Under the pieces are notes generated by a model, which ran no database searches, was not told the origin of the DNA, and saw only the letters and a list, made by a program, of their open reading frames with translations. From Allodiplogaster sudhausi (Eukaryota; Nematoda; Chromadorea; Rhabditida; Diplogasteridae): 64,000 bases of DNA. The position numbers were made by a program, and so were the translations under genes. Where the stretch lies: NCBI GenBank assembly GCA_945643635.1, contig CALZFC010000356.1, positions 2,674,501 to 2,738,500 of the forward strand, in the 5' to 3' direction. The first letter of the stretch is position 1. Each line of letters begins with the position of its first letter. This document shows, in pieces, positions 26,955-58,389 of this stretch.

Positions 26955-29532
26955 GTACAATTCTTGATTAGGCTGAAAGTTCCCAGTCACCTAGTCAGTG
27001 TTCCGCTTGCATGTTGACCAAGGCACCAAGTAGCATATCCATGCCAGTTGACTCTCTCTCTCGTTCACTCTCTCTCTCGCTCTTGCTCTCTCTCTCTCTC
27101 TTTCTTTTCAGGATGTCTGCCTAAACTATTATGGCGAATGCTAGAGGTAGTAATTGCTGATTCACATCCTGATGCGAGGCGCAACCCTTGAAGCCCGTGT
27201 GCGGGTTTATCCATTAAAATATATCCCATTAACAATCAATCGATATTGATCGATATTTTCCCTTTATTACACTTCTGGAGAGAGAGAAATACGGAGGAAG
27301 GAGGTAGAGAGAAAGGAGCGAGAGAGAGAGAAGAGAAAGAAGAGAGAGAAGAGAGGGAGAGAAGAGAGAGAGAGAGAGAAGAGAGAGAAGACATTATACA
27401 AGTATTAACGAAATAAAATCAGTCGAAATAATATGCACAAAATGCATAACAGTTTATAATCTCCAATACTAGATGAAATATAAAAAAATTAAAACAAATA
27501 TGATTAAAAATAACAATGCTTAAAATAATCATACTCCATGATACTGATATTCATTTTAACATTCTCCATCACTTTTATGATTTCGAAATGAATGCGAAAT
27601 GTGCTGGTGGTTCTGTGGCGAACATTCACCAGAAAGGCAGGAGCAGAAAATAAGGTGCGATCAATCGCTGCTAAGTTCTTTCTACGAAGAGTAATAAAAA
27701 CCAAAGCAACACATGATAAAACTGCATCGAGTCGTTATATTATTTTTCAATTCCTAACTTAGAATACTGTCATTGGTACCGAGCGAATTGAATTTTTTTT
27801 AAATGCGCAATCCAAACAGCTAGCACATTTAATTTTTGGTTGAAGTTGCAGCACACTCACCATCAGATGAATGACCAGTTGGAACTAAGAAATGTTTTCA
27901 TTTTTGTTTTTTTTTACGGCCATCAACTCGATGGGACTGAGAGGAGCGAGGAGGGGCGACAAGAGCGAACTACTGGGAGGGCAGTGATAGAAAGCGATAG
28001 AACGACAGCACGACAGAGTGAGAGACGGAGAGAGAAAGAGAGATAAAGAGAAAGAGAGAGAGAGAGAGAGGAGGGAGAGAGAGGAAAGAGAGGAGAGTTT
28101 ATATGTTTATGCTGCGGTTCTCTACGTTTTTTGATGTTGGATAGTTCTAATAAAAATAGGTAAAGGAAAATTATAATTCTTTTGGAAATTTTATGGAGAA
28201 ATGAACTTCAACAAAAGTATTTAAGTGAGAATTTTAGTTAATTTACTGCAATCTTAAGTTGTGATATCATCACATGTAATTTTTAGCTTCTGTCATTCCG
28301 GTGGATGAGCGGAAAAGAACCACCAGGTCATTTGGCATGCATTTCACACCGATAGAAGTGGAAAAGTGTATATTAAAATTTTTCGGAATATGAATAATTG
28401 GAACAATAATTTTAAATCATATTTTATCCAGTTTTAGAGCACAGCTCCATCTGGCTGGCGTTGTTCGAGGTCGATGCCGCGCGTGTATTTCATTCGGACT
28501 TAACCATATATTGAAGCTATAATAAATTGTATTCGAGTAATAAAATTTTAGTAACAGCTTATAGCGCAAATATTATATAATTTGTTGCTCGCTTTGTGTT
28601 TGAAATTACCGTATTTTAAAACTCGCTTAAATTGTGCTACGCTTTAGTTATGAACACTGTTCTGCTTTAAAGAGAGATAATGTGAGAGAGAGAGAAAGAG
28701 AGAGAGGGAAAGAGAGAGAGAAAAAGAGAGATAGAGGGAGCTAATGAATTTATTTTTTAATATTTTCTAAATGGAAGCATTTCTTCCCTATTATTCGTGT
28801 GCTGTCACTTCAAAATATTATTAATTTCATGTAGATAAATTAATAAATACCCGATGAAGATTAGCCATTGAAGTTAAAAAGCGAAAACTATTGAGCGAAA
28901 AAACATCCGGCGGAGATCTACATTCGATTAAATTGTATTTACTGTTTTCCTACTGGCTTGCTAAACGCCTCTTTAACACTAATGACAAAATGATGATTGC
29001 ATATCTCGAATGACTGCGAGTGAAAAGCGCCTGGCATGCCTCTCCGCATTCTCACTTTGCCTGAGCGCTGCTGACGAGGCGGAAAGTGACCTAAATATAC
29101 GAAGTGTCAGCGGATAAACCTCTTTAGATTCACAGCCCAATCGATTACCATTTAAAAATCAAAATTTGCAGTCTTTTATAACTGAGTCTCTCTAAATGGC
29201 ATGCTCCCTTGCTCTTTTAGTTGGGATGGCGTTAATTGTAAACTGAGTTTGTAGTGAGAATGCAGAAGGAGGTTCCAAAACATTTTTTTTTCTTTAGCGA
29301 ACTTGCTCTGCCATTGAGAAATGAGAGAGCAGAAAGAGAAGGAAACGCATTCTAAGCAGATTATTATCGGGAGAAACACATAGATCAAATACCGACAAAT
29401 AAGCAACGAATGATGAACTACGATTCATGGAATTTGAGAGGGGGGGGGGGAGACCGACGAAAAGAAGAAGAGCGAGTAATTGCCCGACTGACCGGCAATG
29501 GTAGATTTTGAATTATTCATTTATAAAAGTAC
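26955..29532 (+). repeat. left arm of a 2.58 kb near-perfect inverted repeat
   Basis: This arm is the reverse complement of 31079-33654. Coordinates of matched points sum to 60609 over most of its length, so there are essentially no gaps except a 2-bp change in the G run near 29440. I saw only a few mismatches in the parts compared. It contains dispersed-core copies near 27623 and 28286 and GA tracts at 27280-27390, 28020-28100 and 28680-28740. The peptides read here recur identically in the other arm and are not recognisable genes. Confidence 0.92.
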
Positions 29533-31078: not shown

Positions 31079-33654
31079 GTACTTTTATAAATGAATAATT
31101 CAAAATCTACCATTGCCGGTCAGTCGTGCAATTACTCGCTCTTCTTCTTTTCGTCGGTCCCCCCTCCCCTCTCAAATTCCATGAATCGTAGTTCATCATT
31201 CGTTGCTTATTTGTCGGTATTTGATCTATGTGTTTCTCCCGATAATAATCTGCTTAGAATGCGTTTCCTTCTCTTTCTGCTCTCTCATTTCTCAATGGCA
31301 GAGCAAGTTCGCTAAAGAAAAAAAAATGTTTTGGAACCTCCTTCTGCATTCTCACTACAAACTCAGTTTACAATTAACGCCATCCCAACTAAAAGAGCAA
31401 GGGAGCATGCCATTTAGAGAGACTCAGTTATAAAAGACTGCAAATTTTGATTTTTAAATGGTAATCGATTGGGCTGTGAATCTAAAGAGGTTTATCCGCT
31501 GACACTTCGTATATTTAGGTCACTTTCCGCCTCGTCAGCAGCGCTCAGGCAAAGTGAGAATGCGGAGAGGCATGCCAGGCGCTTTTCACTCGCAGTCATT
31601 CGAGATATGCAGTCATCATTTTGTCATTAGTGTTAAAGAGGCGTTTAGCAAGCCAGTAGGAAAACAGTAAATACAATTTAATCGAATGTAGATCTCCGCC
31701 GGATGTTTTTTCGCTCAATAGTTTTCGCTTTTTAACTTCAATGGCTAATCTTCATCGGGTATTTATTAATTTATCTACATGAAATTAATAATATTTTGAA
31801 GTGACAGCACACGAATAATAGGGAAGAAATGCTTCCATTTAGAAAATATTAAAAAATAAATTCATTAGCTCCCTCTATCTCTCTTTTTCTCTCTCTCTTT
31901 CCCTCTCTCTCTTTCTCTCTCTCTCACATTATCTCTCTTTAAAGCAGAACAGTGTTCATAACTAAAGCGTAGCACAATTTAAGCGAGTTTTAAAATACGG
32001 TAATTTCAAACACAAAGCGAGCAACAAATTATATAATATTTGCGCTATAAGCTGTTACTAAAATTTTATTACTCGAATACAATTTATTATAGCTTCAATA
32101 TATGGTTAAGTCCGAATGAAATACACGCGCGGCATCGACCTCGAACAACGCCAGCCAGATGGAGCTGTGCTCTAAAACTGGATAAAATATGATTTAAAAT
32201 TATTGTTCCAATTATTCATATTCCGAAAAATTTTAATATACACTTTTCCACTTCTATCGGTGTGAAATGCATGCCAAATGACCTGGTGGTTCTTTTCCGC
32301 TCATCCACCGGAATGACAGAAGCTAAAAATTACATGTGATGATATCACAACTTAAGATTGCAGTAAATTAACTAAAATTCTCACTTAAATACTTTTGTTG
32401 AAGTTCATTTCTCCATAAAATTTCCAAAAGAATTATAATTTTCCTTTACCTATTTTTATTAGAACTATCCAACATCAAAAAACGTAGAGAACCGCAGCAT
32501 AAACATATAAACTCTCCTCTCTTTCCTCTCTCTCCCTCCTCTCTCTCTCTCTCTCTTTCTCTTTATCTCTCTTTCTCTCTCCGTCTCTCACTCTGTCGTG
32601 CTGTCGTTCTATCGCTTTCTATCACTGCCCTCCCAGTAGTTCGCTCTTGTCGCCCCTCCTCGCTCCTCTCAGTCCCATCGAGTTGATGGCCGTAAAAAAA
32701 AACAAAAATGAAAACATTTCTTAGTTCCAACTGGTCATTCATCTGATGGTGAGTGTGCTGCAACTTCAACCAAAAATTAAATGTGCTAGCTGTTTGGATT
32801 GCGCATTTAAAAAAAATTCAATTCGCTCGGTACCAATGACAGTATTCTAAGTTAGGAATTGAAAAATAATATAACGACTCGATGCAGTTTTATCATGTGT
32901 TGCTTTGGTTTTTATTACTCTTCGTAGAAAGAACTTAGCAGCGATTGATCGCACCTTATTTTCTGCTCCTGCCTTTCTGGTGAATGTTCGCCACAGAACC
33001 ACCAGCACATTTCGCATTCATTTCGAAATCATAAAAGTGATGGAGAATGTTAAAATGAATATCAGTATCATGGAGTATGATTATTTTAAGCATTGTTATT
33101 TTTAATCATATTTGTTTTAATTTTTTTATATTTCATCTAGTATTGGAGATTATAAACTGTTATGCATTTTGTGCATATTATTTCGACTGATTTTATTTCG
33201 TTAATACTTGTATAATGTCTTCTCTCTCTTCTCTCTCTCTCTCTCTTCTCTCCCTCTCTTCTCTCTCTTCTTTCTCTTCTCTCTCTCTCGCTCCTTTCTC
33301 TCTACCTCCTTCCTCCGTATTTCTCTCTCTCCAGAAGTGTAATAAAGGGAAAATATCGATCAATATCGATTGATTGTTAATGGGATATATTTTAATGGAT
33401 AAACCCGCACACGGGCTTCAAGGGTTGCGCCTCGCATCAGGATGTGAATCAGCAATTACTACCTCTAGCATTCGCCATAATAGTTTAGGCAGACATCCTG
33501 AAAAGAAAGAGAGAGAGAGAGAGCAAGAGCGAGAGAGAGAGTGAACGAGAGAGAGAGTCAACTGGCATGGATATGCTACTTGGTGCCTTGGTCAACATGC
33601 AAGCGGAACACTGACTAGGTGACAGGGAACTTTCAGCCTAATCAAGAATTGTAC
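31079..33654 (-). repeat. right arm of the 2.58 kb inverted repeat
   Basis: Mirror of 26955-29532. Its outer end (GTAC at 33651-33654) and inner end (GTAC at 31079-31082) are both reached with matching sequence in the other arm. Beyond each end the similarity stops abruptly. Confidence 0.92.
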
Positions 33655-37355: not shown

Positions 37356-38149
37356 CATGGGCAGAAGTCCACCTCAGGTGCAAAAGTCACTACGTTTTTA
37401 GTGGTAAGAAAGTTGGAACGTTCTTTGTGGTTTTTACAATTTGGATACTTCAAGGGAGGAGCATAGAAGGTTCCAGAAAAAAAACTGTTACAAAGCCACG
37501 CATAGCGCTTTATTATTAGAAAGATTATATGATACTTGTGTTTATTGAAATTTTTTATCAAGTCTCTTCAATAAAAAAATTAATAAGAAATGTCCTGGTG
37601 GTTCTCTGCCGCTCATTCACCTGAAAGGCAGGGGCTTAAAATAACATGTGATGCATAGTCTCTGAGTCGATATTAATAAATATATAGCAAAATGAAATGC
37701 AGTATAGTGATAAACGGTGGCAAATCTGTTTATTTCCAATTCATATTGCATAATGACACTGAGCGCATTTTGATTTCTAAAAAAATACATTGATATGCAA
37801 TGCAAAGCGGTTTGCAACGAGAGTTGGCTTTCCCAGCAGACTCAAATGAATGAACTGTTATAACAACAACAACAAAAAAAAGGCCATAAAGCGTCTGACT
37901 GAAACTTTTAGCCAGCCGGACCTACGGGCTGTGCCTTTGAACACATATAGGATGGTTGCACAGAAATATAGGAATTACTCCCTGTATTGCAAAAGGATTA
38001 TTCCTTGGTTTTTTTTCTTCCAGAGCTTTGAACTTTTAAAGTATTTGCTTGCGAGTACTCCGTGTAATATTGTCACTGAAGAAAGGTTAGGATGCAAATA
38101 TCATTGCGAGAAATAAGATCATCTTCCTTCACTTTCTACCCATGCACTG
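37356..38149. repeat. dispersed repeat, 5' flank of the LTR element
   Basis: A minus-strand core copy is near 37613. Segment 38020-38120, read in reverse, carries an empty site of the Tc1-type family. The last four bases, ACTG (38146-38149), are the target duplication of the LTR element. Confidence 0.7.
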
Positions 38150-38423
38150 TGTCATAGCCCCGGGTGAGCTGTCATAGCCCCGGGTGAGCCAAAGTGCAAC
38201 CGGTCTGCGCTGGTCGCCCCGCCCCTGACGGGACGGAGCGGCTAGCGCTGACTGACACGAGAGGGCGGAGAGAACCACCTCACCAGGCGGCTGTCCCGGG
38301 CTCTGCCCTCCTTCCCCCGTATTTATATAGTATCATCATGCTTTATGATATGTAAGATAAAGATATATATTAATCCCCGTCTCCCTGCCTACTATACATA
38401 AGTAACTACACCACGGTTCTACA
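38150..38423 (+). repeat. 5' LTR
   Basis: The LTR starts with two tandem copies of a 20-bp sequence beginning TGTCATAGCC. A GC-rich middle follows, then a TATA-like stretch (TTTATATA, near 38323). It ends TTCTACA. No difference from the 3' LTR was seen by eye. Confidence 0.95.
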
Positions 38424-38441
38424 TGGAGGTCCCGGGGAGAT
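38424..38441 (+). other. candidate primer-binding site
   Basis: TGGAGGTCCCGGGGAGA follows the LTR with no gap. A TGG start is expected from pairing with a tRNA 3' CCA. I could not name the tRNA. Confidence 0.55.
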
Positions 38442-39802
38442 CCTTCAACTGCTCAACTGCAGGAGATCCTCGAAAGGAGATGAGAGCCCGTCGACGACGC
38501 CAGCGACGCGTCAGGTGTCAGTCGCCCCAAATGCTTGGTTGCGCCTAGGGCCAGTAATACTGTATACGATATTTTAATCCGCTTGGAATAGTTTATTTTT
38601 CGCAAATTAAGCGGCAAATTTTGCTTTAGTTGCGAGGAACCTGCGTGCTGCCCCCAAACAGAAAGAAAAAGAATCATTTGTGTAATCGCGGCATTTAGAC
38701 AGCGCGCATGGGCAACCGAAGTAGGGGGAAGAAGAAAGAATAATATAAGACAGGGCAGCAATCAGTAGGATTGGCATGCTCCGCGAGCTCGCAAATGGCT
38801 GACCTCTCCACCTCCTCTAGAGCGACGCGAGAAATAATGTAAAGTAAAATTAACTCCATGGACTTTCCTTTTATTGTACTCCGTTTGTCAAGGCGAAGAG
38901 TGGAGAGGCTAGAACGCCGCATTTATAATAGATAAGAGTTCCTCGAATAGGCGCAGCGTGCATTAGACATCACTCTCTCCTCAAATTCTATGATCAAATA
39001 AGTTTCTAAATATTTTAATATACATGTTTGCAATAATTTTGTAATGTCCCAATATACATATCTACCCTCCCTTACCCACTTCCTCGGGGCAGCCAGCCAT
39101 CTCCAACACTCCCGGAGTACACGGAAAATTAATTCCCGTCATATACATATTTTTTTTCGATTCTCTACTTATATTTGTTATCATTTCGCGTACATTTATA
39201 TAACATTCCTTCGCCCGAGAGCACACGGTATTCATAATTCCGAAGCTATGTACATATATGCACTATTCTCTCTCAATATCTCTCTCGTTCGCTCTCTCTA
39301 GACCTAAGCGGGCGATACGGTAAAAAACCGGCCTGCAGCTAGGCGCGCAGCCAAGCTCTCATTCTATGCATCTCACCATATCGTCCAATATCTTACATTC
39401 CTCACCCTGTCTGGGCTACATTCAAGCGCGCTTCCCACGCACTGCATATAGAAAAGTGCAAGCTTACGCAGTTTTACGCGCCCGCACATGAAACGAGCCA
39501 AATAGCCGCGCGTTAAAGAAATAGATCTTTATCGCATTCAAGCCCCATCTCTCTCAGTGACATTCCGCACCTTGAGCGATTGCAGAACATGAGTTCATTG
39601 AGACAAAGAAGGACAGCGCGTGAAAGGACATGCATAGAACGCAAGCTCGCAAATTAAGAAAAGCGAAAGTACGAGCGCAGTAAAGAGAAAGAGACAAGCC
39701 GTACTTTACATACATATGTAGGTGCTACGCTGGCATAGACTCATTTATACATACATTCATAGATATGTAATTGCACTGAGATGTGAACACGCATGTATAT
39801 GA

Positions 39803-39845
<43 letters not shown>

Positions 39846-40172
39846 GATATAGATATCCTACACATCAGATATGTCCATAAAAACAATGACTGATAGATTA
39901 ACATCTAGACACTACTCATTTATATAGGCCACCCACATTTTAAGTCCCCATAATTAACCGTGTGCTCCGGGGAGTAACGCACTCATGGCGTTCACTCACA
40001 TATAGCGTCGTACACACGCTCAAGCCACGCAAGTGGCCAAAAAACAGCCATCATTCGTCGACGCGCTCACCCGCGCCGAGGGCCATACTCTTGCTTTACG
40101 CGATATCTCAGAATTTATAACGTGAAATCCAGATTCGAGTCAACGGAACACGATATCGCCAACTTGAAACGC
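38442..40172 (+). other. long untranslated leader of the LTR element
   Basis: About 1.7 kb without a convincing ORF. It contains a (TA)n run at about 39806-39845 and a short CT tract near 39270-39300. The main reading frame is open back to 39978 but has no ATG before 40173. In a second frame, 40006-40122 reads as compact, Gag-like coding sequence that ends at a TGA just as the main frame begins. Confidence 0.6.
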
Positions 40173-43100
40173 ATGGCTGCTCGTCGAGCGGGCCCCGCCT
40201 TACAGAACCAACAAGCCATACTACGATCACTCCGATCACCACCGCCGAAATTCGACCCGGCGAACGAGTCATTGACGCACTTCTTCGCACGATTTAACGA
40301 CTATGCAAGCGTCAACGAGACCACAGAACAAGAATCCATTCGGATCTTCCCAACACTTCTACCAGGCAACGTCCGACGAGTCTACAACGGTCTAGATGAC
40401 CAAACTCTCAGAGGCGGAAACTTCGTCGCCATAGTCGATTCACTCATCGAAGAGCTCCAAGGGCCAGAATTTACAACAGTCCCCCGATCAAAGCTCTCGA
40501 GCATCCGGCAGGGAAGTATCTCCGTAAACGACTTCGCCAATGCAGTCAGCCGTCTAGTCGAAGACGCCTACCCATCTCAAAGGGCCGGCGCCCACGACGA
40601 CCTAAAGAAGACCCACTTCGTAAATGGTCTCCGCAACAATCTAAAGAAGGGTGTCTTAAGAAAGAACCCAGAGACCTTCACCAACGCCGTCATGGCTGCT
40701 TGTTTCGAAGAAGCGATGTGCGAACTCGATGACGACGTCATCTCAAGAATCAACGCGCTGCAAGTGCAAACAAGCGAGGCACACCAAGATGAGCACGAAG
40801 TCAACTTCATGAGACACGAACAGCGACGCTACCCGTACCATGAACCGAACAACTACGCGCCGAATGCAGGACAGCAGGGCTACGCAAGAGGAACCTCCTT
40901 TGCCTATCGTGGAAGACCCGATTATCTGTTGCATCAACGAGGAAGACAGCCCAGATACGGTAGCAGACCAAGCTCAAGAAACGATCAATACCGTCAATAC
41001 CCTCAAGAACGATCACAATCTCGCCCACGTTACAACAACGATACCCGACGCGGAAGAAGCCGCGGAAGCGGACCACGGAATGTCCATTTTCTAACAGTGA
41101 TGGCAACCCTCTTTGCAATTATCACAACAGCATTCGCAAAGAAGGAATTTTACGATTGCGCATCCGCCACAGGAGGCTTACTCGTGAAGATGGCATCGGA
41201 ACAACCATGCGAGATGACTACAAGCGACCGGGTAATAGACACGACCATCCAACTGTACACTCTGAATCGAACCTTGGAAGATGCCAAAGCGACGCTCTGT
41301 ACAATCCGAGAGTACGAAGTATGCACGGACTCGACATTCTTCCTGTACTCCATCCTATCAAACAAGACGAACGAAAGGACGGCAACGTATGCAGAATGCA
41401 TAAATGCACGAAGGACCTTCGAATGGAAAAATAAACCTATCAGAAGACTCACAAAGACACTTGCAGGAACGGACCGGCCACTGGCCCCTTCAAATAAGTT
41501 CTGGGGAAGAAACTGCAAACGCGAGGAAGTATTTTTCATGGAAGAAGGACCAATAACAATGATTCAAGAAGAGCAGATTCTGACTCCACTCATGATCCAT
41601 ACAAAGGATTGCGAGGGGAAGGACGGCTTCTGCAAAGGAAACGACTTCATCGTGATATGGCTTCCAGAAGAACTAAAATCGGAGCCCTGCAAATATATCC
41701 CACTCTTGACAACAAAAGCCCTCATCGGCCGAAATCGTATCTTGATTGACTCTGCACACATTTCGCTTTCGCTCGATAATTATAAAACAATCGAACGTGA
41801 CTGCTTCGAGCACTTGCCACACGCGACGACTACGGGCGTGATCGCAACTTTTCCTGATCTGCATCCTGATGCTAACATCACTGAGATCATGAATGGTCGA
41901 GAAGTACACGCTCGGCAAAGACACCGCCGCGTCCGTCGCGACGACAGCGCCAAAGCCCTCCTAAGGAAGAAATTGGATAGGACAGTCCTTCGACAATTCG
42001 TCACGCAAGAGGCAACTGCACAAACCACCACGCAGACGAGCACGACAACGCAGCGACAAATGACAGCAAGGGAAACAATCAAGCCATGGAAAATCCTCCC
42101 CCCAGGAGAGACACACCCTCCAGCGATGCAGCCCACCACTACAGTTGCCACAACCTCCACGGAAAAAGTGACAGCGAAAACGAAGATCACAACATCAACA
42201 ACGCCGAGACAGACCATGACAAGCCCTACGACTACAACAAAAACAAGAGGAAGTACAAAATCAACAACCACTACGACGCCGATCGCATCGACGACACATA
42301 TCTCAAGCACCACTCAAATACCACATATCGTCGCCATGCCTCCAGAAGAAGCGGATACTGCAATAGAATATAGGAAAGTGTGGAAAAGATTGCCACCAAT
42401 GCCGCGTGTTGCTCTCGCACAACAACAAAATACCCATGACTTCAATACACCAAGAACGACGCGGTCAGAACAAGCACGAGTGCTCCCAAGGGAAGAGTTT
42501 CATCCTGCGCCAACCCCACCATTCCATTCACTCGGCACTCCACACCCGCTCGTCACTCCACCCCGAGCTGCTGAAGAAGCAGAGGCCGCCCAAATCAACT
42601 TCTTACACCAGAAATATGATCACCAGGAGAACCTCCGCCGGAACTATACGCACGTAGGCGTAAATCAGAAGATCAACTACGCCGCGAGAAGGATTCAACA
42701 AGACATGGTCAGGACTTTCCAACAGCTCGCAGCTTCCATCTGCACGAGCGAGAACCTAGCCATACGGACATTTCGCGCAATCGCATGGATCGACCCCACA
42801 GTTGCAATCCGATCACTGATGGATCGCCGGGATATAATTGCACGATTCGTCGGAGAAGACGTGCTCATAATTTCCAAATGCCGCACTATAAAAGCCGAGA
42901 TGATCGTATACAACAAGAAGATCAACGACTCATGCACGGCACTTACACCGATCTGGTCGGAAGACAAAGAGCTCTACTACGCCATTCCTGGAACACGAGA
43001 CGTCATTCAAAGCTCACCATCTATTTCATGTGACAAGATCACTGAAGATGTCTGGAATCTGAACGACACTTACGTCAGAGGCCTCTCAAACGATCCTATC

Positions 43101-46100
43101 AACGTCACATCTCTCCAAGGCTTCCACTCGAATAGCAAGATGACATTCTCCGATATCGATGTCACAAACGGTGATATATTCGAGAAGGCGAAAGGTTCAT
43201 CGTTTCCCCTGCAACTCGCCATCACTTACGGATCATTCTTGCTGTCCATGAGGACACAGAGCGCTCGGCTCATAGGAGGCATCAGCGGATCCGAGTTCAC
43301 CGAGCTCACAGGATCGCAGCTTCCCAGATTCAACATCGACGTACCGGGACTGTTCGACAGAATCCACGGATTCTGGGAAAAAATAACAGACCATATCGTA
43401 TGGTTGCTGATGAAACTAAGCCTGCCAGCAGCTGTGATACTCCTGATAGTCATCATCGCCTTTATCATCAAGCTGACAGTACTCTCACGCATCATGCGAT
43501 TCATAAACGGCGCACCAAAACTGAAGATCAACTTCGTGCGAACACCACTCGTCAGCGAAGAAGACAGCACCGAGCTGGAAGAGATTATAAGGCCATCGCG
43601 ACCACCACCACCACCCCCGCGGCGCGAGCGTTATCACAGAACTGCGAGACGTACAGTTACCCTCCCAGAAGATACAGTATTCACATTTCTTCGGGTTAAC
43701 AATGTGTACGGAAAGACCACAAGAACATTGCCACACATTCCTATTACGATATCGGATCGAGCCACGGTTGCTCTTTTAGACACGGGAGCAAACGTCTCGT
43801 ACATAAAAGAGTCATTCGCCCGTAAAGCAGGACTGCAACCACACACTACCAGCTCATCAGCTCAGACAGCAAACAATTCCACAATCAAGTTCATCGGCGA
43901 ATGCAGAGCCAGAATAAGAATCGGAAATAACGTTATCGACCACAAAATTCTCGTCTCTCCAGACAACGACTGTCCGGCAACAGCCCTTATCGGATTCGAC
44001 GTTATGGAAGAACTGGCAAGACAACAAGTGTTTACGATGTTTAAAGAGAAAGAAGCAGTTATCGGAGACTCTATCATCCCACTTCTCTCTTCACCCACCG
44101 ACGTCTACAGGGAAAAATCAAGCCATGTCTGCACACTCACAACGCTGCGGACATGCCGAATTGACCCCAATGAGGAGAAGGCTATTTACATAGCCCTCCC
44201 GGAACACAAAGACAGAAGTGACGGAGCAGCCATTTACAACATCAGATGCAACGATGAACAACAATTCCTTCGCTTCGAACCATTCCTTTGCCAATCTGCC
44301 AGAGAACTGACCCAGGTCATCGTCCATAACACAAGCGACAAACCAGTCATGCTGATGCAAGGAGCCCGAGTCGCAACTGCAACCGAAATCGAATCTTCAA
44401 CCATCGAATACATACCACCAGAAGCAGACTGGGAAAGCCGCCTGCCACAAGTCCTTCCGACGGACAAAGAGAATTTTGCCAGCCTCATACAGATCGACAC
44501 TTCACATCTTAACGAACGAGAAAGTGACAAACTTCTGGAGCTGTTAGAGGAACATCGTGAAGCTTTTCAGCTAGACGACAACCTCGGACATTACAAGGGT
44601 CCCATACAGCACCACATACGGCTGCAGAAGGACGCAAAGCTCCCAACTCCAAGAATTCGCCATATCCCCTTGGGTAAACAAGAAGAGATCGACAAGCAAG
44701 TGGAGACGCTGCTTCAACAAGGCGTAATCCGGGAGAGTATCTCTAATGTTCTCTCCGCACCAGTCCTAACGCGGAAGAAGGATTCAACATTTCGATTCAC
44801 AGTCGACTATCGGCCAGTAAACGCCATCACTGAGCCTGAACCAATCGCACTGCCAACTGCCGACGAACTGTTGATGGAAGTCGCAGGAGCAAGATACTTT
44901 ACAACATTGGACCTTGTTTCCGGATTCTTCCAAATTGAACTCAGGCCACAAGACCGGTACTTAACCGCCTTCAGAACCCCAAGTGGAATATACGAATTCA
45001 ACAGGTTGCCTATGGGACTGTGTGGTGCACCCGCAACATTTCAACGCGCAATGCAGCTGGTCAGGAAAGACACCGGAAATAATATCTCCGTATACCTCGA
45101 CGATATTCTTATCACTTCGACCACTTTCGAGGAACACATCGAGAAACTGCGGAAGGCCCTCCTATCAATCGAGAAATTCGGACTGAAGTTAAGCCCGCGG
45201 AAGTGTAAATTTGCTTCACCATCGGTACAATATCTTGGATTCGTGGTAAACCACCAAGGGATCCAACCGAACAACGTGAAAGTAGAAGCCGTCGAGAAGT
45301 ATCCGAGGCCTACTAACAAGAAAGGGGTACAAATTTTCCTCGGCATGCTCAACTACTTCAGACGTTTCATCCCGCAATACGCAGAGATCGTCGCCCCGCT
45401 AACTACCCTCACGGGGAACGTACCATTCCAGTGGAGCCAGGAACAGCAAAGCGCTTTTGAGAAAGCCAAAACCTTACTGACTACCGCCCCGATTCTGGCT
45501 AACCCGCGCCGTGGAACACCATTCATCGCGGAAACGGACGCAAGCGGAATTGCGTTAGCAGCAGTACTCCTACAAGAACAGGAGGGACAACTTCATCCTA
45601 TCGCGTATGCTAGCCGGAAACTTAAGGATGCCGAAAGAAGATACGTTGCACTGGAAACAGAGGCACTCGGAATCGTCTGGGCAATCGACACCTTCAAGCA
45701 GTACATCTATGGAACACCTACAACGATAATAACGGACCATAAGCCGTTAGTATCACTGCTAAAAAGGAAGAATCTCGACGGACGCCTTTTGAAATATCAG
45801 ATGATAATTCAGGGAGAGGATATCAAAATCGAGTATCGCCCAGGAAGATTGAATTCAGTCCCGGACGCCCTCTCTCGATACTTAGAAGACGAAATCGCGG
45901 AACCGAAAGAACGTGCACCAAAGGAAAAAGAGACTCCGATGTCAGACGACCTGGAAGCGTCAGACACAGCTATGATAGTGAACTTCGTCGAAATCTCGGA
46001 GATAGCAGACGCACAGCAAAAATCTGACTGGATCAAGCAACTCATCGAGAAGACGAAGGCCTCTCCTAACGAGAAGTACACCATTGAGAACGAAATCCTG

Positions 46101-47372
46101 TACGAAAACGACCCGGATTCCGCCTCACCCATCATCCTACTTCCCAGAGAAAGCAAAATCATCAACGACATAATTGCTCACTTCCACGACTCGAGATGTG
46201 CTCACGCCGGTACCAAGAGAACAACGGCTACTATAAGAAAGCGCTTCAAGTGGAGAGGAATGGCAGCCGACATCGCAAGTCACATCCGCACATGCGACAT
46301 CTGCCAAAGGTTCAAAGCGCAGCCATGCGATTATACAGTCGAACCTCTCGGCGCCTTCGAAGTGCCAAACGAGCCTATGGAGAGGATTCATCTCGACATC
46401 GCCGGCCCTCTCCCAGAGAGCGACAGAGGATATCAATACATCGCAGTATTCGTAGACGCTTTCTCGAAGTGGACGATCGCCGAACCTATCCCGGACCAGA
46501 CGTCCAGATCCATTCTGGATGTCTTCATCAAGAGACTCTGCCACGTACATGGGACGCCACGCCAGCTGATCACAGACCGAGGCTCAAACCTCGTTTCAAG
46601 GGAATTTCAAGATACCCTGAAGACACTTGGAGTCGAGCATGGCTCCTCCACACCGTACCGCCACCGGGCAAATGGACAAGCAGAGCGAACAATTCGTACC
46701 ATTCAAGAAGCGATGATACCGTACGTCAACGACAGGCAGACCGACTGGGACCTCATCATCTCAAATACAGTGTACATCATCAACACTATGAGACACTCAA
46801 CAACAAAGGAATCGCCATTCGCCGTACTATACGGTCGGGAGCCGCGTCTTCCTGAAGATAACTTACTGCAGATGCCAACGGCAGGGAACCCAGCAAATGT
46901 GGAAAGCTACTCCGCTCAGATGCGGAGGAGACAGTCCAGCTGCTGGAAAGCAGTGAGGAGTAACATCGAGGACGCGCATGAGCAACAGGCGGAGTACTAC
47001 GACAATCGGAACAACACCCAACCTCGCCACGTGGAAGCTGGCGAAGAAGTGCTACTGCGAGGAGCTCCACGACATAACAAATTAGCGCCGCGCTCGGCAA
47101 GACCCGTCCGCGTCGTTTCTACAGATGGGAGCAAACTAACAGTCGAAGTTCGCCCCGGACATCAAGCAGTTTGGCACAAAGACAATGTCCGCCGATACAA
47201 TCGTAGAGAAGGCCGGCAAAACTACACTCCAAAAAACGCCGTTGTCAATACTCCCCACGCAAGAAGAAAGACACCGCAGACCGCCGCGCCGACAGAGGAG
47301 CGCCCGGCGTACTCGAAAAGATCCCACCGAGAGCTGAAAAAGAAGCGAGCAGACGACTACGTCTACTACTAA
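40173..47372 (+). CDS. Gag-Env-like-Pol polyprotein of the LTR element
   Basis: One uninterrupted frame encodes the whole element. Residues are counted from the in-frame GTG at 40122; the first ATG is residue 18 (40173), chosen as start with reservation. Gag: about 20-320, with a retrotransposon-gag-type stretch near 125-150 and an Arg/Gly-rich tail instead of zinc knuckles. Env-like region: about 321-1150. Protease: DTG at 1220-1222. Reverse transcriptase: about 1480-1790, YLDD at 1658-1661. RNase H: D1806, E1845/E1847, D1872, D1915. Integrase: zinc residues H2022, H2028, C2058, C2061 and catalytic D2092, D2152, E2188, then a GPY/F-like tail; no chromodomain. All catalytic residues are intact and there is no stop or frameshift inside, so the copy may be active. 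Cleavage sites between the parts cannot be read reliably. Confidence 0.92.
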   Translation: MAARRAGPALQNQQAILRSLRSPPPKFDPANESLTHFFARFNDYASVNETTEQESIRIFPTLLPGNVRRVYNGLDDQTLRGGNFVAIVDSLIEELQGPEFTTVPRSKLSSIRQGSISVNDFANAVSRLVEDAYPSQRAGAHDDLKKTHFVNGLRNNLKKGVLRKNPETFTNAVMAACFEEAMCELDDDVISRINALQVQTSEAHQDEHEVNFMRHEQRRYPYHEPNNYAPNAGQQGYARGTSFAYRGRPDYLLHQRGRQPRYGSRPSSRNDQYRQYPQERSQSRPRYNNDTRRGRSRGSGPRNVHFLTVMATLFAIITTAFAKKEFYDCASATGGLLVKMASEQPCEMTTSDRVIDTTIQLYTLNRTLEDAKATLCTIREYEVCTDSTFFLYSILSNKTNERTATYAECINARRTFEWKNKPIRRLTKTLAGTDRPLAPSNKFWGRNCKREEVFFMEEGPITMIQEEQILTPLMIHTKDCEGKDGFCKGNDFIVIWLPEELKSEPCKYIPLLTTKALIGRNRILIDSAHISLSLDNYKTIERDCFEHLPHATTTGVIATFPDLHPDANITEIMNGREVHARQRHRRVRRDDSAKALLRKKLDRTVLRQFVTQEATAQTTTQTSTTTQRQMTARETIKPWKILPPGETHPPAMQPTTTVATTSTEKVTAKTKITTSTTPRQTMTSPTTTTKTRGSTKSTTTTTPIASTTHISSTTQIPHIVAMPPEEADTAIEYRKVWKRLPPMPRVALAQQQNTHDFNTPRTTRSEQARVLPREEFHPAPTPPFHSLGTPHPLVTPPRAAEEAEAAQINFLHQKYDHQENLRRNYTHVGVNQKINYAARRIQQDMVRTFQQLAASICTSENLAIRTFRAIAWIDPTVAIRSLMDRRDIIARFVGEDVLIISKCRTIKAEMIVYNKKINDSCTALTPIWSEDKELYYAIPGTRDVIQSSPSISCDKITEDVWNLNDTYVRGLSNDPINVTSLQGFHSNSKMTFSDIDVTNGDIFEKAKGSSFPLQLAITYGSFLLSMRTQSARLIGGISGSEFTELTGSQLPRFNIDVPGLFDRIHGFWEKITDHIVWLLMKLSLPAAVILLIVIIAFIIKLTVLSRIMRFINGAPKLKINFVRTPLVSEEDSTELEEIIRPSRPPPPPPRRERYHRTARRTVTLPEDTVFTFLRVNNVYGKTTRTLPHIPITISDRATVALLDTGANVSYIKESFARKAGLQPHTTSSSAQTANNSTIKFIGECRARIRIGNNVIDHKILVSPDNDCPATALIGFDVMEELARQQVFTMFKEKEAVIGDSIIPLLSSPTDVYREKSSHVCTLTTLRTCRIDPNEEKAIYIALPEHKDRSDGAAIYNIRCNDEQQFLRFEPFLCQSARELTQVIVHNTSDKPVMLMQGARVATATEIESSTIEYIPPEADWESRLPQVLPTDKENFASLIQIDTSHLNERESDKLLELLEEHREAFQLDDNLGHYKGPIQHHIRLQKDAKLPTPRIRHIPLGKQEEIDKQVETLLQQGVIRESISNVLSAPVLTRKKDSTFRFTVDYRPVNAITEPEPIALPTADELLMEVAGARYFTTLDLVSGFFQIELRPQDRYLTAFRTPSGIYEFNRLPMGLCGAPATFQRAMQLVRKDTGNNISVYLDDILITSTTFEEHIEKLRKALLSIEKFGLKLSPRKCKFASPSVQYLGFVVNHQGIQPNNVKVEAVEKYPRPTNKKGVQIFLGMLNYFRRFIPQYAEIVAPLTTLTGNVPFQWSQEQQSAFEKAKTLLTTAPILANPRRGTPFIAETDASGIALAAVLLQEQEGQLHPIAYASRKLKDAERRYVALETEALGIVWAIDTFKQYIYGTPTTIITDHKPLVSLLKRKNLDGRLLKYQMIIQGEDIKIEYRPGRLNSVPDALSRYLEDEIAEPKERAPKEKETPMSDDLEASDTAMIVNFVEISEIADAQQKSDWIKQLIEKTKASPNEKYTIENEILYENDPDSASPIILLPRESKIINDIIAHFHDSRCAHAGTKRTTATIRKRFKWRGMAADIASHIRTCDICQRFKAQPCDYTVEPLGAFEVPNEPMERIHLDIAGPLPESDRGYQYIAVFVDAFSKWTIAEPIPDQTSRSILDVFIKRLCHVHGTPRQLITDRGSNLVSREFQDTLKTLGVEHGSSTPYRHRANGQAERTIRTIQEAMIPYVNDRQTDWDLIISNTVYIINTMRHSTTKESPFAVLYGREPRLPEDNLLQMPTAGNPANVESYSAQMRRRQSSCWKAVRSNIEDAHEQQAEYYDNRNNTQPRHVEAGEEVLLRGAPRHNKLAPRSARPVRVVSTDGSKLTVEVRPGHQAVWHKDNVRRYNRREGRQNYTPKNAVVNTPHARRKTPQTAAPTEERPAYSKRSHRELKKKRADDYVYY
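41082..43570 (+). other. env-like membrane glycoprotein region between Gag and Pol
   Basis: Inside the long frame, residues 321-1150 look like a viral surface glycoprotein. A hydrophobic signal-type segment lies at about 322-339, followed by a domain with ten cysteines (346 to 561). Then come a furin-type basic site near 597-606, a Thr-rich mucin-like linker (628-735), a second domain with four cysteines and a single strong transmembrane segment (about 1091-1118). At least seven N-glycosylation sequons fall between signal and membrane segment. This two-subunit layout is typical of class I-like or negative-strand-virus-like envelopes, but I cannot assign a family. If the polyprotein is threaded into the ER as read, Gag and Pol would both stay cytosolic and only this part would be luminal. 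An ATG at 41100 (residue 327) in strong context could start a separate product. Confidence 0.75.
41087..41102 (+). promoter_or_regulatory. possible splice acceptor and start codon for a subgenomic env message
   Basis: A pyrimidine run plus CTAACAG (41087-41097) ends two bases before ATG at 41100, which has G at -3 and G at +4. The ATG opens the hydrophobic signal segment. This is what a spliced env mRNA would need, but no donor was identified. Confidence 0.35.
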
Positions 47373-47374
47373 AT

Positions 47375-47505
47375 CTGCATCTTTTTCCTTCTCTCTCTTC
47401 TTTTCTTTTTCTTCATTTTTTTTTCTTTTTCTATTCTTTCTTTCTCTCTCTCCTTCTTTTTTTTCTTTCTCGTCACTTGTTTTATATTTCTCGATATTTG
47501 CTTAG
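47375..47505 (+). other. pyrimidine-rich tract after pol with acceptor-like end
   Basis: A long T/C tract follows the stop codon of the main ORF and is succeeded by TTTGCTTAG near 47495-47503. It could serve as a splice acceptor region for a message carrying the downstream ORF, or be a simple tract. Confidence 0.3.
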
Positions 47506-48133
47506 ATTATGAAAACATTATGTATACATGAGTATCTGTCCCATAACACCACTTTGGGAAATGATTAACAGTGTTTAACAACACATGATGCACATACACT
47601 TTTACTCTACCTAAAAGTACACGGTGCACTGACAGTTACCCCCTCTAACCTTGTCAAATTCTTCCACACGCAAAAGTCACACTTCATAGGAAACGTAAAC
47701 TGATCGCAATCGCATTGTCTAGACGTTACTCTCTCCAACTTCTCTCTCTCACCCCTCTCCTCGCCCGTCGTTCGCGCAATCTCGTCATCACATCTCGCAA
47801 CCATCGCCACATCCTTTGCTCTACCTTGTGAGAGCACTCTCGTGTCGTTCCACTCCGCATCCTACAGGAGTATGATCTATCGCTGCCCAACCACTCCAAC
47901 TTCCAGCACACGCTCGCCACCTTACTCTCTCAGTCCGCCGGCGTCACTCGGAGCGACCTGTCTCTCTTCCCCCTGTTACGCTCTTCCCTCGACACGCTCT
48001 ATCGCCATCAAGGACGACAGACAGTCTCAAGAGGCGGAGAACAGAAGCGAGAACTATATGCATATAAGGAAGTCAGAGTAGCGGAAGACTCCATTGTGCT
48101 CAGACAACTTCGCCCTGACCACCGGCTTGCAGC

Positions 48134-48550
48134 ATGTCTGACTTCCCTGTGCCAGAACACCTCGCCTATCTACAGAACTACGCAATCGATCTCGCTGGCG
48201 AAAGGCTGCTGGAAGAAGTCGCCGCTCTCAGGAAAGAACTCGCCGACACAAAGATGGACCAGGAAGGCTGGTGCACTGCCTACCAGGAGTCTGCCAGACG
48301 TTGCAGCGACCTCCGCAGAGAGCTGGAGTACAGCGACACAAAGCGGCGGGAACATCAACATCATGAGTGCGCACTCGAAGTCACATTGTGGGACCACGAG
48401 CGCCGCGCCGACAGAATGCGAGACGACATGCACGAGATGCGCAACGGTCACATCGAACGGGAGGCAGCCTTATACGAGAGGATTTACGAGGTGGGAAAAC
48501 GCCAGGAACTGGATAAAGCCAGGCGAGAGGAGGCATCCCAGTTTTTTTAA
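48134..48550 (+). CDS. small coiled-coil accessory ORF of the LTR element
   Basis: This 138-codon ORF lies between pol and the 3' LTR, where gypsy-type elements usually keep env. The start is the ATG at 48134 with A at -3. The protein is strongly charged and heptad-like from about residue 20 to 135 (many Leu, Glu, Arg, Lys) with a few Cys, and lacks a signal peptide or membrane segment. No family was recognised. An alternative frame (48096-48563) is longer but has no plausible ATG and a less protein-like composition. Whether it is expressed from a spliced RNA is unknown. Its composition resembles the main ORF and differs from the AT-rich flanks, which supports coding. Confidence 0.5.
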   Translation: MSDFPVPEHLAYLQNYAIDLAGERLLEEVAALRKELADTKMDQEGWCTAYQESARRCSDLRRELEYSDTKRREHQHHECALEVTLWDHERRADRMRDDMHEMRNGHIEREAALYERIYEVGKRQELDKARREEASQFF

Positions 48551-48735
48551 ACGAGAGAAGTAACGACCATCTGTGATAATGTTAGCCATTTGACGATATT
48601 GTTATGTTGATGTCATTAATGTAAAAAATAAATTTGCTATAATCGTTCAACACCATACTATGCACACTGCACACTAACAACGGTGGACTGATTTAAAGGT
48701 GAATTGTGTTTACAGAGCGAGGGACCGCTCTTTTC

Positions 48736-48746
48736 GGTGGTGGGGA
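48736..48746 (+). other. polypurine tract
   Basis: GGTGGTGGGGA directly abuts the 3' LTR; it is the expected plus-strand primer, interrupted by a single T. Confidence 0.6.
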
Positions 48747-49020
48747 TGTCATAGCCCCGGGTGAGCTGTCATAGCCCCGGGTGAGCCAAAGTGCAACCGG
48801 TCTGCGCTGGTCGCCCCGCCCCTGACGGGACGGAGCGGCTAGCGCTGACTGACACGAGAGGGCGGAGAGAACCACCTCACCAGGCGGCTGTCCCGGGCTC
48901 TGCCCTCCTTCCCCCGTATTTATATAGTATCATCATGCTTTATGATATGTAAGATAAAGATATATATTAATCCCCGTCTCCCTGCCTACTATACATAAGT
49001 AACTACACCACGGTTCTACA
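48747..49020 (+). repeat. 3' LTR
   Basis: Same length as the 5' LTR and, as read, the same sequence, including the tandem 20-bp start. Followed by the target duplication ACTG. Confidence 0.95.
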
Positions 49021-49024
49021 ACTG

Positions 49025-55608: not shown

Positions 55609-58389
55609 TTGGCAACGCAACGCCTCCCTCCCTCCTCAACACCCTTTCAACCAGTGGCCCCCCCTTTACCGCCACTGACCAATATCATTCGCAGGCCCAA
55701 TCATCCTACACACCATAAGACACACATTGAAGCCTGTAAGATCTTACTCTTTAACGCCCGATCAATTGTAAATAAGAGTGCAGAATTAAGCAACATTTTA
55801 AAAGAATCCTTTGGTATTATCGCGATTGTCGAATCATGGTTATCTTCTAAGTATCCCGACTCATTCTTACTAGCCGGCAACACGAACTATAATGTCTTTC
55901 GTACAGACCGTCCTCGCCGCAAAGGTGGCGGTGTAGTTTTGTTAGCTCACTCCGCGATCTCGTGTAAGATTATCTCTTATATTTCATCCGCCGGGTCTTT
56001 TGAGCTTCTTGCCGTTGATTCCAGTTTTAATAGTAGTCTTATCCGCTTTATTACGGTGTACCGCGCCCCCTCTTCCGCTGCAGAAGGCAATTCTTTTCTT
56101 ATAAATTCCCTGCGCGATCTATCAACCTGCGCTCATCCAACTATCATTTTGGGGGACTTTAATTTCCCCGACCTTTACTGGTCTCTTCCTTCACCCCCGG
56201 CAGTCGGCAGTGTCCCTCCCCAATCCAAGCTCTTCCTTGATTTTACCTCCTCCGCATTCTTCGCCCAACTCACACCTACTATTACATGTAACTCCCATAT
56301 TCTTGACCTTATTCTTTGTAACACTCCCCATCTTCTTTCAAATGTTTCTGTTGCCCCTCCTTTCGCTTCATCGGATCATAGCAGCGTAACAGCGGATTTG
56401 TCTCTTTCCCTCTCTTTCCCCAGCTTCACTTATGTTAAAGATTATTCTAAATGTGACTACTCTGCAGCCAATTCATTTCTATTATCTTTCAATTTTCCGG
56501 CAACCCACACAACCTGCACCTGTATAGATGACATGTACTCGCAACTTGTCTCCGCTCTTCAAGTTACCGAATCACTCTTTGTTCCTTTTAAACAAGTCAG
56601 TATTAATGGTGATAGACTCCCTGATCATATCCTCCGATTGCAACGCACACGTTATCGCCTTTGGCTCCATTCCCTTATGATTAAGTCTACAGAATCTGAT
56701 CTTAGTTTTAAAATTGCCAATGACCGTTACAATAAGTCTGTTGATAAGTATTTTCGCAATGTAGAGAAGCATATAGTTGAGTCTAAGAATACATCCCATT
56801 TCTATCGTTATATACGTAATAAGACCTGCTCCAAACCGAGAGGAGTAGACACCCTCACTGATCCTGATCCTCTTGGTATTGATTGTTTCTCTGATATAGA
56901 TAAAGCAGAGCTTCTCTCCCGTACCTTTTCAGATTCCTTTACCACAGATAACGGCTCTCTCCCTCCCTTCTCTACAGCTAGTTCGCGCTCACCTTTCCAT
57001 TTCATCTTTGCTAGGCACGACATATGCCGCGCGATTGAAACCTGGTCCAACAGTTCTTGCATCACTCCCGATCATTTCAATATTAGATTTATTAAAAACC
57101 TTGCAATACCTATTAGCGAATCTCTTGAATATATCTTTAATTTCTCACTGACCTCTTCAACCGTTCCCAGAATTTGGAAACATTCCATTATTGTCCCCAT
57201 TAAGAAGAAGCCACCTTTCTCTAACCCCATCAATTATCGCCCAGTTTCGATCACTTGTCTGTTTTCTAGGCTTTTCGAGAAGCTTGTCTGTCGTAGACTA
57301 TCCTCATGGTGCGATGATAATTTTATCTTTCCGGATGAACAATTCGGTTTCCGTCGTAAGCGCTCCATAGAATTTCAGCTGTTAGACTGTTTAGAAAATT
57401 GGTCTCAATCTTTACACCAAGGAAATTCTACTGACGTTGTTTACTTTGATCACGCTAAAGCTTTTGATAGGGTTAGTCACCCAAAACTTCTTTATAAGCT
57501 CAGATGTCTCTCTTTCCCACCTATTTTAGTAAACTGGATAGCCAGTTTTCTTGACAACCGTACTTTCTCAGTTCGTGTAAATAAGACCCTATCTAAGCCC
57601 CGTAATATAATAAGCGGAATACCTCAAGGCACAGTTATTGGTCCCCTCCTCTTCATCGTCTACACTGCCGACCTCCCCTCTTTAGTCTCCTCTCATGGCG
57701 CAACTGCTCGCTGCTTCGCTGACGATCTTAAAATATTTCAGTCTTTCCCTCCCTCTCAAACCAATCCCGATCTCCAGTCCGCTATCGACGTAGTCGCTAT
57801 TTGGGCAGATACCTGGCAACTTCCCCTCGCCGCTGACAAATGCTCTGTACTCCACATTGGTAGAAATAATCCTCGAATCGCTTATACGCTTAACGGCACT
57901 CCTCTCTCTTCGGTCGATTCCATTCGTGATCTAGGTATAATTATCGATGACCGCTTATCATTTTCTTTACATTGTAATAAAATAGCCAATTCTGCCCTCG
58001 CTAAGGCACATCTCATCCTTCGGTCACTCCGCACTCGTAATAAGAATGTCCTTTTATCTGCTTATACCATCTATGTCCGTTCCATATTAGAAAATTGTAC
58101 GACTGTCTATTCTCCTCACTTACTAAAAGATAACCGCGTTTTAGAAAAGGTCCAGAATTTCTTCTCACGAGCAATTTTCCGGCGATGTTATGGTTATGCT
58201 GCATTGTCCGTCCCTCCCAGCGAGGAAAGGAACCGCATCCTTTCCCTCCCTTCTCTTAGAGCGCGCCGGGAAGATTTTGATTTCACCCTTGCTCGTCGCC
58301 TGATATTTGGACATAGAAAACTGTGCCTTAAACACTCCCATCACTCCATTTTCGTCATTCGCGAACTCGTGGTCTTTCATTTAAGCTAG
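55609..58389 (+). CDS. LINE endonuclease-reverse transcriptase ORF
   Basis: The 926-codon ORF starts with an APE-type endonuclease (about residues 40-265): N49 in FNARS, E75, D183 and N185 in GDFN, and S255-D256-H257. A linker follows, then reverse transcriptase (about 510-790) with D614/D620 in block A and the catalytic FADD at 703-706. All key residues are present. The C-terminal end looks shifted: after about 58370 the family-like continuation runs on in another frame to a stop near 58492, so the last 30-40 residues were probably altered by one small indel. The start at 55609 is the first ATG, but the frame may begin upstream since the 5' end is truncated. The enzyme nicks target DNA and primes reverse transcription there. 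Confidence 0.88.
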   Translation: MATQRLPPSSTPFQPVAPPLPPLTNIIRRPNHPTHHKTHIEACKILLFNARSIVNKSAELSNILKESFGIIAIVESWLSSKYPDSFLLAGNTNYNVFRTDRPRRKGGGVVLLAHSAISCKIISYISSAGSFELLAVDSSFNSSLIRFITVYRAPSSAAEGNSFLINSLRDLSTCAHPTIILGDFNFPDLYWSLPSPPAVGSVPPQSKLFLDFTSSAFFAQLTPTITCNSHILDLILCNTPHLLSNVSVAPPFASSDHSSVTADLSLSLSFPSFTYVKDYSKCDYSAANSFLLSFNFPATHTTCTCIDDMYSQLVSALQVTESLFVPFKQVSINGDRLPDHILRLQRTRYRLWLHSLMIKSTESDLSFKIANDRYNKSVDKYFRNVEKHIVESKNTSHFYRYIRNKTCSKPRGVDTLTDPDPLGIDCFSDIDKAELLSRTFSDSFTTDNGSLPPFSTASSRSPFHFIFARHDICRAIETWSNSSCITPDHFNIRFIKNLAIPISESLEYIFNFSLTSSTVPRIWKHSIIVPIKKKPPFSNPINYRPVSITCLFSRLFEKLVCRRLSSWCDDNFIFPDEQFGFRRKRSIEFQLLDCLENWSQSLHQGNSTDVVYFDHAKAFDRVSHPKLLYKLRCLSFPPILVNWIASFLDNRTFSVRVNKTLSKPRNIISGIPQGTVIGPLLFIVYTADLPSLVSSHGATARCFADDLKIFQSFPPSQTNPDLQSAIDVVAIWADTWQLPLAADKCSVLHIGRNNPRIAYTLNGTPLSSVDSIRDLGIIIDDRLSFSLHCNKIANSALAKAHLILRSLRTRNKNVLLSAYTIYVRSILENCTTVYSPHLLKDNRVLEKVQNFFSRAIFRRCYGYAALSVPPSEERNRILSLPSLRARREDFDFTLARRLIFGHRKLCLKHSHHSIFVIRELVVFHLS

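Follow-up and report, generated by a model that had tools for sequence, protein, structure and literature searches.

Retroviruses and their relatives are taught as having the gene order gag-pol-env, Env usually being produced separately from the other two proteins. The subject of the present analysis is a Ty3/gypsy-type long terminal repeat (LTR) retroelement in a 64,000-nucleotide stretch of the genome of the nematode Allodiplogaster sudhausi (NCBI GenBank assembly GCA_945643635.1, contig CALZFC010000356.1, positions 2,674,501 to 2,738,500, forward strand), which is called the window and in which all positions are counted. In this element, an Env-like region lies in frame between Gag and the protease.

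Dingle, an annelid element, resembles the window element in combining a Ty3/gypsy pol with an Env of the class III type, similar to herpesvirus glycoprotein B (gB), but its env is located downstream of the integrase (PMC7854359), whereas that of the window element is located between Gag and the protease. Atlas and other nematode belpaoviruses share with the window element the nematode host, an uninterrupted polyprotein that includes Env, and identical LTRs. However, the single polyprotein of Atlas has the order Gag-Pol-Env, its reverse transcriptase (RT) is of the Bel/Pao type with the motif YVDN found in nematode belpaoviruses, and its C-terminal Env is of class II and phlebovirus-like (PMC9094657); the RT of the window element has YLDD instead of YVDN, and its predicted class III Env is in the middle of the frame. 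Tas of Ascaris and Cer-7 of Caenorhabditis elegans are also nematode elements, one of them with a herpesvirus-like Env; the word order of PMC7642597 assigns the herpesvirus likeness to Cer-7 and the phlebovirus likeness to Tas, and PMC9094657 describes the Env of Tas as weakly gB-like. Both differ from the window element in being Bel/Pao rather than Ty3/gypsy elements and in having the env-like protein 3' of the polyprotein (PMC7642597). Anakin carries a captured chuvirus-type glycoprotein, which is the point of likeness, but it is a BEL/Pao element of mosquitoes (PMC7642597).

Among Ty3/gypsy elements, the insect errantiviruses (gypsy, ZAM) also combine this type of pol with an envelope; they differ in that their Env is of the F type, is encoded in a third reading frame and is made from spliced RNA (PMC12992720). 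Cer1 of C. elegans is likewise a nematode Ty3/gypsy element with gag and pol in one frame, but no env-like domain is described in the available part of PMC10309623, where the 3' open reading frame (ORF) is CERV, an RNA export factor, and Gag has CCHC fingers. A survey of 2023 found chuvirus-type glycoproteins beside Gypsy fragments in arthropods, with 'no clear evidence' of capture (PMC10084718). An article in EMBO Reports, whose gypsy baits come from Chary and Hayashi 2025, states in its figure legends that type III fusion glycoproteins are common to gypsy elements, BEL elements and RNA viruses (PMC13172572). No description of a Gag-Env-Pol order was found in this literature, which, being partly covered, is weak evidence. 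The parts were known before; the Gag-Env-Pol order and the membrane-threaded polyprotein that it implies appear to be new. An initial annotation of the window, made from the letters alone, had called the order unusual relative to gypsy-type elements and retroviruses and had known of no described family arranged in this way; env is indeed not located 3' of pol here, as it would be in the errantiviral and retroviral plan.

The reading that we consider likely as a whole is that the element belongs to a nematode clade of Ty3/gypsy-type elements, carries a class III Env between Gag and Pol, and is translated as a membrane-threaded polyprotein, the mechanistic part being what we infer. Positions 38150-49020 are a recent insertion. 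Both LTRs are identical over 274 bp with TG...CA termini, they are bounded by a 4-bp target duplication, and a 13-base primer-binding site, TGGAGGTCCCGGG, adjoins the end of the 5' LTR and is the same in the three families A, B and C described below; these are the features of a Ty3/gypsy LTR element. The Pol order given by Pfam, protease-RT-RNase H-integrase, is also that of Ty3/gypsy elements, and each of the four domains has at least one Pfam model clearly above its cut-off.

The stop-free frame extends from 40122 to 47372 (2464 codons from stop to stop). As a small correction, GTG at 40122 is only the mechanical start of the ORF; the first ATG in the frame, at 40173, is the probable start codon, and its Met matches the first Met of family B in an alignment made by eye. 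Gag corresponds to the first 320 codons, and its match to PF03732 (E 9e-4, 19.9 bits) is below the Pfam cut-off of 24.1; for Gag of families B and C, the scores are 24.0 and 24.9 bits, respectively. The Arg/Gly-rich tail of Gag is without a CCHC knuckle.

The Env-like region (41082-43571) comprises 830 codons. The computed features of these 830 residues are an N-terminal hydrophobic signal at residues 1-19, 14 Cys, 7 sequons, a furin-type RHRR/RVRR site at residues 280-286, a stretch of 100 residues beginning at 312 that contains 40 Thr, and a single strong transmembrane segment at residues 770-808. Every part of the frame listed in the initial annotation, from Gag through the signal, cysteine-rich domains, furin-type site, Thr-rich linker, sequons and single transmembrane segment to the protease and integrase, was found to be present by Pfam and these computed features.

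The profile PF24664 (Monjiviricetes_fusion) matched the window Env with 45.9 bits (E 2.6e-12), and it matched those of families B and C with 62.5 and 49.9 bits, all above the cut-off of 27. PF00606 (herpesvirus gB) stayed under its cut-off in all three families, with 26.8 bits for the window Env vs a cut-off of 43. The single Env sequence gave four weak phmmer matches, all to gB, the best at E 0.013, and a profile of the three families matched only gB among PDB structures (29 chains with E of 1 or less, the best at E 0.0022); the chains named GP110 and BALF4 are those that we take to be Epstein-Barr virus gB, and the other chains are gB by name. The N-terminal parts also align with the top PDB chain, with a score that is insignificant by itself.

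The 14 Env cysteines are invariant in the alignment of A, B and C, and family B has one extra in the tail. In A and B, the furin-type site follows the cysteine-rich N-terminal part and precedes the fusion domain, which is where the furin loop of gB is located. The assignment to the class III fold rests on the profiles, the conserved cysteines and the domain order, because no usable structure model was obtained, and on these grounds the middle region is predicted to be a class III (gB/chuvirus-like) fusion glycoprotein, as the profile search against viral glycoproteins proposed in the initial annotation was able to indicate. Direct protein searches gave no match at E 0.001, either with Env plus the protease-RT (PR-RT) part or with the three-family Env alignment as the query, and IMG/VR scans gave no relative.

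The order is not peculiar to this insertion. The genome was searched with the Env piece; scoring of 54 among the 454 candidates yielded at least 67 match rows, seven of which span all 830 Env residues at about 100%. Seventeen insertions (L001-L017) were examined, consisting of eight loci returned by this search and nine more chosen from the 67 match rows; the window element is L003, and L018 proved to be the same insertion as L007. In all 17, env lies upstream of PR-RT on the same strand. Similarity to gag upstream of env was found by tblastn in 13, and for L012, one of the other four, Gag was found by Pfam. The insertions fall into three families: A, that of the window; B, whose Env is 55% identical to that of A; and C, whose Env is 28% identical. 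In the one copy each of B and C analysed with Pfam, the region matching PF24664 is fused in frame to Gag and Pol. The copies are mixed, some having stops or frameshifts and others being fully open. All eight insertions whose flanks were examined (the window element and seven more) have a 4-bp duplication and LTR pairs that are 99.6-100% identical; families A, B and C have moved recently. In the family C copies L012 and L013, the end of the frame is ~220 bp from the 3' LTR, which leaves no room for a second env, so that the one in the middle is the only one.

The ratio of the proportions of non-synonymous and synonymous differences (pN/pS) was calculated using a single copy of A and three copies each of B and C, some of the copies contributing only some of the parts. 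Between A and B, it was 0.33 and 0.25 for two parts of env, 0.24 for PR-RT and 0.47 for gag, values that are descriptive only because synonymous sites are saturated. Env has plainly been kept as a protein under purifying selection between A and B. The A-C and B-C values were 0.54-0.82 over all parts, which is expected under synonymous saturation. Copies within B or within C differ at few sites, too few for a test; one env pair within B shows 1 synonymous and 4 non-synonymous differences.

Relatives were sought with Pol in a protein database, where the 7992 candidates sharing the most words were scored, and 120 of the 1164 matches were listed. Among these 120, an env domain was found in 21 proteins using profiles made from our own pieces, in 22 using a second-round profile, and in 23 when P0066 is included, whose match came from a laxer scan (E 7.7e-10). 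The env domain precedes RT in all 23. By their source names, 20 of them come from eight nematode genera (Caenorhabditis, Diploscapter, Auanema, Heterorhabditis, Oesophagostomum, Ancylostoma, Aphelenchoides and Globodera), and the remaining three are two unnamed metagenomic proteins and one labelled as a bacterium. The database proteins are gene predictions, and the DNA of the present genome shows the Gag-Env-Pol order directly.

In a midpoint-rooted FastTree tree of RT (124 sequences, with 124 of 124 segments kept), a clade of 30 tips with local support of 1.0 unites the nematode proteins with the four tips that represent families A, B and C. By profile, 25 of the 30 tips bear env, and four of the other five proteins start within Pol. 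The fifth, P0037, has a strongly hydrophobic stretch before the protease and weakly matches the env end of P0038 (E 3e-5), which suggests that this protein is truncated within env. The RTs of families A, B and C are nested among the 120 Pol matches in this tree, which consists of those matches and the four family tips. P0082, an unnamed metagenomic protein, and P0066, labelled Flavobacteriaceae and probably a eukaryotic contamination, fall outside the 30-tip clade yet have a class III env before RT; they may represent a second case or a swapped pol. In P0028, a Caenorhabditis nigoni prediction, the class III env is accompanied by a phlebovirus G2 domain (PF07245), perhaps because the predicted gene runs into an adjacent element.

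A chance origin of the layout is out, and a clade of nematode Ty3/gypsy-type elements shares the Gag-Env-Pol order. The initial proposal of an Env-like glycoprotein in frame between Gag and Pol is confirmed and holds more generally than first stated. Both of the circumstances that it named as fatal to it, a Gag extension or non-viral domain and a chance chimera, were examined through the profiles and through the requested search for genomic copies of the same order, made with the Env piece, and neither was encountered.

Flaviviruses thread one polyprotein through the membrane. The Gag-Env-Pol polyprotein may work in a similar way, which is an analogy and not membership of the flaviviruses, and the hydrophobic segments mostly fit it. 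The unspliced RNA would be translated as one Gag-Env-Pol chain, in which the internal signal would thread only Env into the endoplasmic reticulum while Gag and Pol stay cytosolic. Signal peptidase would free Gag, and Env would be held in the membrane by its own transmembrane segment, with Pol extending from it into the cytosol, until the protease of the element releases Pol near the Env tail. Env would confer fusogenicity on the particle, into which Pol may be brought by the Env tail and not by a Gag-Pol fusion. A hydrophobic segment follows Gag at all 13 readable gag/env junctions, and a transmembrane-like segment precedes the protease in all 21 env-bearing database proteins checked as well as in A, B and C.

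The tail between the transmembrane segment and the protease was also compared among 23 sequences: those of A, B and C, and those of the 20 database proteins, out of 22 with env, in which the env match begins beyond profile position 400. The sequence P[ST]AP, which is a late-domain motif of retroviral Gag, occurs in 8 of the 23 tails vs 0.12 expected from shuffles. The motif [VIT]N[AVFSH][ILVF] occurs at 6 of the 13 gag/env junctions and in 16 of the 23 tails, vs shuffle means of 0.48 and 1.3, respectively. It is a possible protease site and a lead only, as the motif was picked after seeing the sequences, some of the tail matches are inside the protease and the row of family C is out of frame. 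A more tentative proposal, to which we give somewhat less than even weight, is that these elements are a nematode-wide and probably old lineage with one membrane-threaded Gag-Env-Pol polyprotein, Pol forming the cytosolic tail of the viral fusogen; packaging of the polymerase would be coupled to Env instead of Gag, and P[ST]AP would often be present in the Env-Pol connector.

Several observations weigh against the reading as a membrane-threaded polyprotein with a class III Env. Regarding the fold, the E-values of the PDB matches to gB are modest, family C is without the furin-type site, and AlphaFold2 run on the single sequence of the Env piece gave an unusable model (pLDDT 38, pTM 0.28). Regarding the topology, a second hydrophobic stretch is found beside the protease in 9 of the 21 env-bearing database proteins, which may be part of the protease fold or a second membrane pass that upsets the topology. 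Regarding expression, 25 ATGs lie within the 1749 bases between the LTR end (38424) and the Gag ATG in family A, which bears on initiation; the leaders of A, B and C contain acceptor-like sites, and a trans-splicing host could process the RNA within the leader. A Met that could be Env's own start is found at or near the signal in 7 of the 13 readable junctions, including those of A, B and C, and the 1:1:1 ratio of Gag, Env and Pol implied by a single chain would be unusual. Regarding packaging, P[ST]AP is absent from family A, its test was devised once the sequences had been inspected, and the control without env is tiny, with seven proteins and one positive (P0037, inside the clade).

The best-surviving alternative, which we hold to be unlikely, is that Env is made apart, from a message cis-spliced or trans-spliced to a spliced leader (SL) and started at an internal Met, with Gag-Pol produced by skipping env, so that the joined frame is incidental or regulatory. 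The internal Met-Ala at the signal start is kept in A, B and C, and the Met found in seven junctions points in the same direction, as does the insect errantivirus env made from spliced RNA (PMC12992720). The host also has exact SL1 leader sequences. An Rfam search for SL1 gave 26 places in the host genome, all under the family cut-off, and 0 in 14 control genomes. At one of these places, the 22-base SL1 leader occurs four times in tandem with 0, 0, 1 and 2 mismatches; it is followed by a GT donor and by AATTTTGG, which is taken to be an Sm-like site, and these sequences make a nematode host most likely. However, a scan with a simple consensus gave no splice acceptor matching 6 of its 7 letters near the gag/env junction in A, B or C or at the env/pol boundary of A, and 6 of the 13 readable junctions have, as judged by eye, no Met able to start Env at the signal. 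Moreover, Env is without its own stop in A, B and C, because of which a message starting at Env would still yield Env-Pol unless it were spliced further. Translation as one Gag-Env-Pol chain is the reading that we retain, at the strength given above.

It is very improbable that the middle region is no viral fusogen but an ordinary extension of Gag or a secreted domain of host origin. The unusable structure model and the unmatched direct Env searches would be compatible with such a region, but the class III fusion profile is above the Pfam cut-off in three divergent families and the PDB profile matches are all gB; the Gag extension was rejected on these viral class III matches in A, B and C. 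Least probable of all is a chance chimera or assembly artefact, such as an element inside an element or a contig misjoin, which oddities of this genome such as the 2.5-kb perfect inverted repeat in the window could suggest but which is ruled out by independent families and species: all 17 insertions examined and all 23 env-bearing relatives listed have the same order, and target duplications and near-identical LTRs bound the whole unit in 8 of 8 insertions.

The coordinates of the features of the window element are given in Table 1.

Table 1. Features of the Gag-Env-Pol element in the window, in order of position.
Feature	Position	Strand	Remark
Target-site duplication ACTG, left copy	38146..38149		sequence read
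5' LTR, TG...CA, 274 bp	38150..38423	+	equal to 3' LTR
Primer-binding site TGGAGGTCCCGGG	38424..38436	+	common to families A, B, C
Long leader	38437..40172	+	
Gag: capsid-like part (PF03732 ~40344-40634) and RG-rich tail	40173..41081	+	
Internal hydrophobic signal segment at Gag/Env junction	41082..41141	+	
N-terminal part of Env ectodomain, 10 conserved Cys	41142..41927	+	
Furin-type basic site RHRRVRR	41919..41939	+	
Thr-rich, mucin-like linker	42015..42314	+	
Predicted class III fusion domain (PF24664; gB-like)	42660..43079	+	
Single transmembrane segment of Env	43389..43505	+	
Predicted cytosolic Env tail, in frame into protease	43506..43739	+	
Aspartic protease (LDTGA)	43740..44009	+	
Reverse transcriptase (YLDD)	44772..45245	+	
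RNase H	45432..45728	+	
Integrase, zinc-binding and core domains	46155..46661	+	
Small ORF	48134..48550	+	tblastn match in two further family A stretches, L027 and L030
3' LTR	48747..49020	+	274 bp
Target-site duplication ACTG, right copy	49021..49024		sequence read

The small ORF at 48134-48550, which may encode an accessory protein, had no tblastn match in the other element loci examined besides L027 and L030. Pfam gave no match for this ORF or for the small ORFs at 15870-16346 (-), 46196-46855 and 41780-42313 (-).

Elsewhere in the window, a 926-aa frame at 55609-58389 (+) with endonuclease and reverse transcriptase domains is a non-LTR (LINE-type) retrotransposon. The inverted repeat of 2497 nt (26955-29451 and 31158-33654) is 100% complementary, with 1706 nt between its arms, and is either a young palindrome or an assembly fold-back. 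A 74-nt repeat occurs four times, at 35074, 35902, 37579 and 52597, the others being 77-89% identical to the first, with the well kept core ATTCACCTGAAAGGCAGGGGCT. In the host genome, SL1-like genes occur in tandem arrays at L054 and on contigs C1, C7, C272 and C273; on contigs C1 and C7 they are oppositely oriented on either side of a centre, which suggests large inverted duplications. No telomere repeats were found at 20 contig ends.

A nematode clade that breaks the gag-pol-env order means that this plan is not obligatory. These elements are a natural case in which a fusogen and a polymerase may be one membrane-spanning chain, and questions about the packaging of Pol and the dosage of Env become directly testable in them. 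The nematode elements also suggest a possible reason why the fossils of chuvirus-type glycoproteins in arthropods adjoin Gypsy fragments. In foamy viruses, Pol is made separately. If Pol is indeed packaged as the tail of Env, this would be a third way to load RT into particles, beside the Gag-Pol fusion and the separate Pol of the foamy viruses.

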